Below are positions 55,262-56,594 of a stretch of 64,000 nucleotides of DNA, one piece after another. Each line of letters opens with the position of its first letter. Position 1 is the first letter of the stretch. The stretch is taken from contig NZ_CP059676.1 of the NCBI RefSeq assembly GCF_014069875.1, positions 682,001 through 746,000 of the forward strand, read 5' to 3'. The stretch comes from Flaviflexus equikiangi (GTDB lineage Bacteria; Actinomycetota; Actinomycetes; Actinomycetales; Actinomycetaceae). The notes under the pieces were generated by a model, which was given only the letters and a program-made list of their open reading frames with translations, searched no databases and was not told the origin of the DNA. Made by a program: the position numbers and the translations under genes.

Positions 55262-55374
55262 CCGAGACGACTCGTTGGCGGCAATCGGGAGCAACCGGAT
55301 TCTTCGTTGACAGATGCTGTCGGTCGGAGGCGGGTGGCTTGGTGGCCGCTTCGAATGTCCCGGTCTCCGTCCCC

Positions 55375-55380
55375 TAGACT
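55375..55380 (+). promoter_or_regulatory. -10 element for the leaderless Cys-rich gene and ribF
   Basis: TAGACT ends six bases before the ATG at 55387, identical to the tsaD -10 hexamer. No ribosome site intervenes. Confidence 0.6.
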
Positions 55381-55386
55381 GGCATC

Positions 55387-55566
55387 ATGAGTTCACCATG
55401 TGCATGTGGCAAGCAAGGATCCAAGTGTGGGTGCGGAGGCCAAGGCCGCCGCGGCGGCTGCGGGAATGGCGGAGGATGCGGATGTGGGGGAGGCGGTTCG
55501 GCCGCCCCAGCCGTCCGGGATCTCTCCGAGGGACGCCCACAGCTCGGCCTGCGGTCAGGTATCTGA
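55387..55566 (+). CDS. 59-residue Cys/Gly-rich small protein
   Basis: Not a recognised family. Seven cysteines lie at residues 5, 7, 14, 16, 25, 31 and 33: three CxC pairs plus one single Cys, in a Gly-rich context (CACGKQG, CGCGGQG, GCGNGGG, CGCGGGG). A short polar tail without Cys follows. The ATG has a well-placed -10 (TAGACT, six-base spacing) with no ribosome site, fitting the leaderless starts around it. The stop codon overlaps the ribF ATG in TGATG, so it is translated upstream of and coupled to ribF. The CxC pattern suggests metal or thiol chemistry. It falls below the size limit of common gene callers, which may hide it. Confidence 0.7.
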   Translation: MSSPCACGKQGSKCGCGGQGRRGGCGNGGGCGCGGGGSAAPAVRDLSEGRPQLGLRSGI

Positions 55567-56594
55567 TGGAGGTGTGGCGCTCTTCTGCCGACATCCCCTC
55601 CGACCTGGCAGGATCAGTCGTCACCATCGGCGTCTTCGACGGCGTCCACAAGGGCCACCGTGCCGTCATCAGCGAAGCGGTCCGGCAGGCTGGCGCTCTC
55701 GGACTTCCCTGCATCGTCCTCACCTTCGACCCTCATCCGGGCACAGTCCACAATCCAGAGAGCGAGATCCCCCTCGTCATCTCGCTCGACGATCGGCTGC
55801 GCCTCCTCGAAGCGCTCGGAGTCGACGTCACGTTCGTCCAGCACTACACACTGGACTATGCGATGGCGAGCGCGCAGGAATTCATCGGTCACCAGGTTGT
55901 CGGCGATCTCAAGGCTCGAGCAGTCGTCGTCGGTGAGGACGCGCGGTTCGGCCGCGGCAACGAGGGGGACGGCAAGCTCCTGCAGTCTCTCGGCGAGTCG
56001 CTCGGCTTCACGGTGACACTCGTGCGCGACCTCGAGGATTCGACGAGCGGACGCCGCTGGTCCTCCACGTGGCTGCGCGAACTGCTGGATGAAGGAAACG
56101 TCAAGGGAGCGACGAAGGTTCTCGGGCGGCTCCACCGGCTCCAGGGCACCGTCGTCCACGGGCACAAGAGAGGCCGCGAACTCGGTTTCCCGACCGCCAA
56201 TCTTCAAGCATCCTCAGCGGGGGTCGTGCCGCAGGACGGGGTGTATGCCGGATGGTTGGTTCGCACGGTTCCGGGCACGTCGGCCGTCGAGAACCTCCCG
56301 GCAGCGATCTCTGTCGGCACGAACCCCCAGTTCGATGGCGAGAAGAGGACAGTGGAGGCACACGTGCTGGGCCGAACGGATCTCGATCTCTACGGCGAGG
56401 AGATCTCCATCGACCTCGTCGCCTATCTGCGTCCCATGTGGGCCTTCGACACTCTCGACGAACTGCTGGGGCAGATGGACGAGGACTTGCGCCAGTCCGC
56501 GCTCGCGCTCGGGGTTCCCGTCAGCGGGCGCGTCGACCCGCGCCGCGTCACGGCAGGAACAGAGGTTTCCGCAGAACAGAATCTCACCTGGTAG
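55566..56594 (+). CDS. ribF: bifunctional riboflavin kinase / FAD synthetase
   Basis: 342 residues from the ATG that overlaps the preceding small gene. Makes FMN and then FAD. The N-terminal FAD synthetase domain starts TIGVFDGVHKGHRAVI (nucleotidyltransferase HxGH motif) and continues with AVVVGEDARFGRGNEGD; the C-terminal kinase domain has VVHGHKRGRELGFPTANL and DLYGEEISIDLVAYLRP. The open frame extends 84 codons upstream but through another gene. Stand-alone ribF before rpsO equals actinobacterial synteny. Confidence 0.96.
   Translation: MEVWRSSADIPSDLAGSVVTIGVFDGVHKGHRAVISEAVRQAGALGLPCIVLTFDPHPGTVHNPESEIPLVISLDDRLRLLEALGVDVTFVQHYTLDYAMASAQEFIGHQVVGDLKARAVVVGEDARFGRGNEGDGKLLQSLGESLGFTVTLVRDLEDSTSGRRWSSTWLRELLDEGNVKGATKVLGRLHRLQGTVVHGHKRGRELGFPTANLQASSAGVVPQDGVYAGWLVRTVPGTSAVENLPAAISVGTNPQFDGEKRTVEAHVLGRTDLDLYGEEISIDLVAYLRPMWAFDTLDELLGQMDEDLRQSALALGVPVSGRVDPRRVTAGTEVSAEQNLTW

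Follow-up and report, generated by a model that had tools for sequence, protein, structure and literature searches.

The 59-residue frame lying directly ahead of ribF in Flaviflexus equikiangi is, on comparative evidence, a real protein-coding gene, and its product belongs to a previously unclassified family, defined here by sequence, of small Cys/Gly(/His)-rich proteins encoded between truB and ribF and kept across the Actinomycetaceae. The window is the whole 64,000-nt stretch of DNA that was analysed, from a genome of 2.34 Mb in a single contig, and all features of the locus described here are on its forward strand. The small gene (55387..55566, stop codon included) encodes, by direct translation, MSSPCACGKQGSKCGCGGQGRRGGCGNGGGCGCGGGGSAAPAVRDLSEGRPQLGLRSGI (59 aa), with 7 Cys at positions 5, 7, 14, 16, 25, 31 and 33, i.e. 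three CxC pairs and one lone Cys. The first pair (C5-A-C7, CACG; 55399..55407) is part of a CACGK sequence found in 5 of the 6 Flaviflexus genomes; the second (C14-G-C16; 55426..55434) lies in a CGCGG module, its two Cys being invariant or nearly so in two family alignments; the third (C31-G-C33; 55477..55485) lies in another CGCGG module, of which Cys33 and the next Gly are nearly invariant. The lone Cys25 (55459..55461) is not conserved, being missing in the homologues of four genomes (G003, G005, G004 and G001). Near the C-terminus, GRPQLGLR (55531..55554) represents the GRxxLGLR motif of the family, conserved in an alignment of 39 members. A -10 hexamer, TAGACT (55375..55380), a putative leaderless promoter, precedes the ATG (55387) by six bases, and the stop codon (TGA, 55564-55566) overlaps the ribF start (ATG at 55566) as TGATG (55564..55568). 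The ribF gene itself (55566..56594) encodes a bifunctional riboflavin kinase/FAD synthetase of 342 aa (PF06574, 7e-44; PF01687, 6e-35; NF004160, over cut-off). The upstream neighbour in the window is a glycerate-kinase-like ORF, and truB is not adjacent. An earlier note on this DNA had described the hexamer, the frame, its three CxC pairs and the TGATG overlap, all of which read as claimed; it recognised the CxC pattern but missed that GRxxLGLR is a conserved motif and that some members of the family are rich in His.

The frame is conserved in all six Flaviflexus genomes, with the upstream DNA divergent between most of them. A protein search found strong homologues 5' of ribF in 4 of the 5 congeners of the window's species, and a short homologue of 36 aa was found in the fifth by reading the DNA upstream of ribF. 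The six ORFs are 59, 64, 56, 70, 94 and 36 codons long, thus differing by whole codons, and in the other genomes of the genus the overlap with ribF is TGATG, TAATG or ATGA. Pairwise dN/dS values are 0.15–0.18 among the window, G003 and G005, 0.13 in another Flaviflexus pair and, outside the genus, 0.01–0.11 in most groups where defined (Georgenia, 0.25), several pairs being saturated at synonymous sites and giving no ratio, and the repetitive middle of the protein being aligned with uncertainty. Every group compared shows a clear third-position excess, indels keep the frame, and the 63 copies of the LGLR/K motif are spelled by 51 different 12-mers. The bias of synonymous over nonsynonymous change that the earlier note had proposed to look for is thus present, and neither frameshifts, nor internal stops, nor loss of the Cys pattern, which it had named as signs against a gene, occur among the carriers. 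A chance ORF in GC-rich DNA would suit the low-complexity composition of the protein; however, the dN/dS values, the in-frame indels and 70 syntenic homologues speak against this origin, which has a negligible probability and was rejected on the dN/dS values and in-frame indels among the homologues. The claim of a real gene hidden ahead of ribF is therefore upheld.

TAGACT followed by six bases and the ATG is common to all six Flaviflexus genomes. With 8 instances of TANNNT-N6-ATG in the window against 3.9 expected, the enrichment is mild and the pattern alone proves nothing; the proof lies in the comparative evidence. A TANNNT element precedes the start by 6–7 bases in Flaviflexus, Arcanobacterium, Trueperella, Peptidiphaga and others, the arrangement of -10 element and ATG being conserved in the first three genera, whereas a Shine-Dalgarno-like start serves the same protein in Actinomyces, Georgenia, Winkia and the genus labelled g12. 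The gene is thus probably leaderless in Flaviflexus, as the earlier note had proposed. As the product is conserved under differing modes of initiation, it can be argued that the protein itself is the selected entity.

The frame of ribF runs open through the small gene, to 84 codons 5' of the likely ribF start, producing a 426-codon ORF (55314-56594). Gene callers may therefore stretch ribF over the small ORF, giving it a false N-terminal extension and hiding the small gene. The shortness to which the earlier note had attributed the oversight is real, but it would not be the sole cause, and the locus may illustrate how small genes can hide under the extended start of a neighbour.

By reading the DNA upstream of ribF in related genomes, a search that the earlier note had suggested, 70 distinct CxC proteins homologous to the small protein were collected from the Actinomycetaceae (delimited as in GTDB, with Georgenia included), nearly all of them from the slot between truB and ribF. 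They are 36–149 aa long, with 3–8 Cys (median 5), 1–4 CxC pairs and 0–15 His, and have in common CxC(G) modules, often accompanied by a His-rich stretch, and the GRxxLGLR motif. The last is the best-kept element of the family (58 LGLR, 4 LGLK and 1 LGVR); in the 39 aligned members Gly49, Arg50 and Leu53 are invariant and Gly54 and Arg56 nearly so. It usually lies 2–4 residues before the C-terminus and in other members is mid-protein or N-terminal (e.g. L056, L158 and L195), which suggests that the order of the modules is free; the family thus appears to be built of CxC/His modules and a fixed LGLR in varying order. One member of 122 residues (L195:945-1310) has LGLR close to the N-terminus and a long C-terminal half that is not of the Cys type. 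Among 80 named loci (1.3 Mb of strand scanned), 28 occurrences of the motif pair lay upstream of ribF; the only two others are detached genes of the family, from Actinomyces oral taxon 170 and A. naeslundii.

The earlier note's suggestion of a new family agrees with the profile searches in the two curated libraries used: no Pfam or NCBIfam family was matched by any of the 39 aligned members, nor any Pfam family by the 9 members of a second set (E 0.01 in both cases). A PDB sequence search with the small protein gave no match, Rfam had no match in the window, and a literature search found nothing on the gene. AlphaFold2 predicted the protein to be disordered (pLDDT 53, pTM 0.15).

The typical gene order is truB-[small gene]-ribF-rpsO-pnp. 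Two profile searches gave matches in 84 and 82 of 213 genomes of the family, tallies that are approximate since true members were missed (e.g. that of G001) and CGCGG-bearing DUF2249-type and HemQ-like proteins were included. Many genomes of Schaalia, Actinotignum and Actinomyces have no such gene at ribF, and in genomes lacking it truB mostly lies directly 5' of ribF. In 19 genomes belonging to other families of the same order, the DNA upstream of ribF has no such gene, and searches with profiles across the class and the order gave only weak, scattered matches outside the family. On a quick RibF tree some 16 changes are needed to explain the presence of the gene, and supported branches force 8 of these; the count scored detached Actinomyces genes as absent and therefore overestimates losses. 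This distribution suits an old gene with several losses. Selection has kept the small protein in much of the bacterial family, genera of the human mouth and mucosae among them. In the same tree some genome records branch within the Actinomycetaceae despite titles that name Xylanimonas cellulosilytica (L130), Sanguibacter keddieii (L134), Propionibacterium (L149) or Chloroflexi (L150); they are probably mislabelled or contaminated.

In at least 8 Actinomyces genomes the small gene lies 3' of truB, with a convergent ABC transporter between it and ribF. The distance to ribF is about 3.5 kb in G072 and G094 and similar in G078, which has the same order; truB, the small gene and a convergent ABC ATPase are found in G060, G079, G080, G098 and G099, and the small gene and the ABC ATPase are visible in G088. 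Since dN/dS among these detached copies is 0.08–0.25, i.e. under purifying selection, the gene acts in trans and is more than a leader of ribF.

These copies bear on the possibility that the ORF is a cis-acting leader with an inert peptide, ribF expression being set by cysteine supply as sensed when the Cys codons are translated. Such a leader would account for the putative leaderless start, the Cys codons and the stop/start overlap with ribF, and has a precedent in mycobacteria, where leaderless polycysteine sORFs with contiguous Cys codons are interpreted as attenuators acting in cis (PMC4633059, PMC9031893, PMC9094748). However, the Cys codons of the window's ORF alternate with Gly or Ala codons and form no contiguous run, selection at the amino acid level extends to the Cys-free LGLR part, some members have Shine-Dalgarno starts and some lie 50–180 nt from ribF. 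Moreover, the RNA fold is ordinary (z 0.44), and a terminator scan found none. We consider a pure leader very unlikely, and as the sole role of the family it was rejected, the gene being retained where detached from ribF; an additional role in cis on ribF may still exist in Flaviflexus.

The same copies weaken the role in flavin balance that the earlier note had suggested, as they stay with truB and away from ribF. A regulatory or metal/redox-sensing partner of RibF, with LGLR binding RibF and the Cys modules tuning flavin synthesis, would be in keeping with the position of nearly all members directly 5' of ribF; against it, detached members persist in Actinomyces, none of the RibF columns listed significantly tracks the presence of the gene in independent pairs (8 supported pairs, a test of low power), and a read-through chain of the small protein and RibF was modelled without docking (first 60 residues with pLDDT under 50; a weak test given the short linker). 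This partnership is accordingly unlikely, although less so than a pure leader. A partner of TruB or of nearby translation/RNA genes (truB, rpsO, pnp), acting for instance in zinc supply, could explain both the truB-[gene]-ribF-rpsO-pnp slot and the detached copies, which keep truB as neighbour; yet the window itself has the glycerate-kinase-like ORF in that position and synteny alone proves no link, so that we give this possibility a low probability.

Both CxC pairs accompanied by Gly and stretches rich in His are typical of ligands for soft or borderline metals. We consider it rather probable that the small protein is a disordered, trans-acting thiolate (+His) metal buffer or metallochaperone with a docking motif, its gene serving in Flaviflexus also as a leader cistron of ribF. 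For the CxC modules, together with the His-rich stretches of most relatives, the likeliest role is to hold a metal of the soft or borderline class (Zn, Cu(I), Ni or the like); for GRxxLGLR, whose constancy across the family suggests docking, it is to attach the protein to a partner. The predicted absence of a fold is in keeping with folding induced by metal or by a partner. In Flaviflexus the ribF transcript would open with this gene as a leaderless cistron, ribF translation probably being partly coupled to it. Against metal binding, the window's protein lacks His and its Cys count is odd, the variation from 3 to 8 Cys in the family is unusual for one fixed metal site, and the best-kept element, GRxxLGLR, contains no metal ligand, so that the core function may lie elsewhere. 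A broader version, in which the whole family would be a small metallochaperone or metal-regulated adaptor with LGLR as a new dock on an essential housekeeping partner encoded nearby (RibF, TruB or the translation machinery), is possible but tentative. With its modules, its truB-ribF slot and a start that appears to alternate between leaderless and Shine-Dalgarno modes, the family would be a clean case in which ideas on small metal-binding proteins can be tested.

CGCGG(H) modules are not confined to the small family: Schaalia has DUF2249 proteins that carry them, and a HemQ-like protein has a tail of this type. In these carriers they are fused to folded domains, LGLR is absent and the genes lie outside the truB-ribF slot. 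Three Schaalia loci (L179, L180 and L181) encode a protein of roughly 200 residues with three or four such modules before a DUF2249-like domain, the DUF2249 profile being confirmed within Schaalia in G014 only; the HemQ-like protein (L186:194-1106, reverse strand; G233) ends in a C-terminal CACGEGGCGCGGHGH tail. The HemQ/chlorite-dismutase profile (PF06778) has matches in all 5 congeners and none in the window's genome. The fusions, both named by eye and the second seen in one genome, together with a CxCG-type motif ahead of DUF2249 in other genomes, raise the possibility that the small protein is a related thiol/NO/iron redox protein. This is improbable, given the lack of LGLR in the DUF2249 and HemQ-like proteins, the fact that low-complexity modules can arise repeatedly and the absence of PF06778 from the window's genome.

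Bacterial metallothioneins (SmtA/BmtA type and mycobacterial MymT) are short and Cys-rich, with CxC pairs and in some cases His, features that the small family shares, some of its members having His. The small proteins differ in having fewer Cys, far more Gly and the additional LGLR, and in being predicted to be disordered; no member searched matched the metallothionein profiles of Pfam or NCBIfam. Like the mycobacterial polycysteine sORFs (Canestrari et al. 2020, through PMC4633059, PMC9031893 and PMC9094748), the Flaviflexus gene is a small, Cys-rich, putatively leaderless ORF that would open an operon and is probably coupled to the next gene; unlike them, it belongs to a family in which the protein is conserved outside its Cys residues, the mode of start is variable and the gene is retained at sites apart from ribF.
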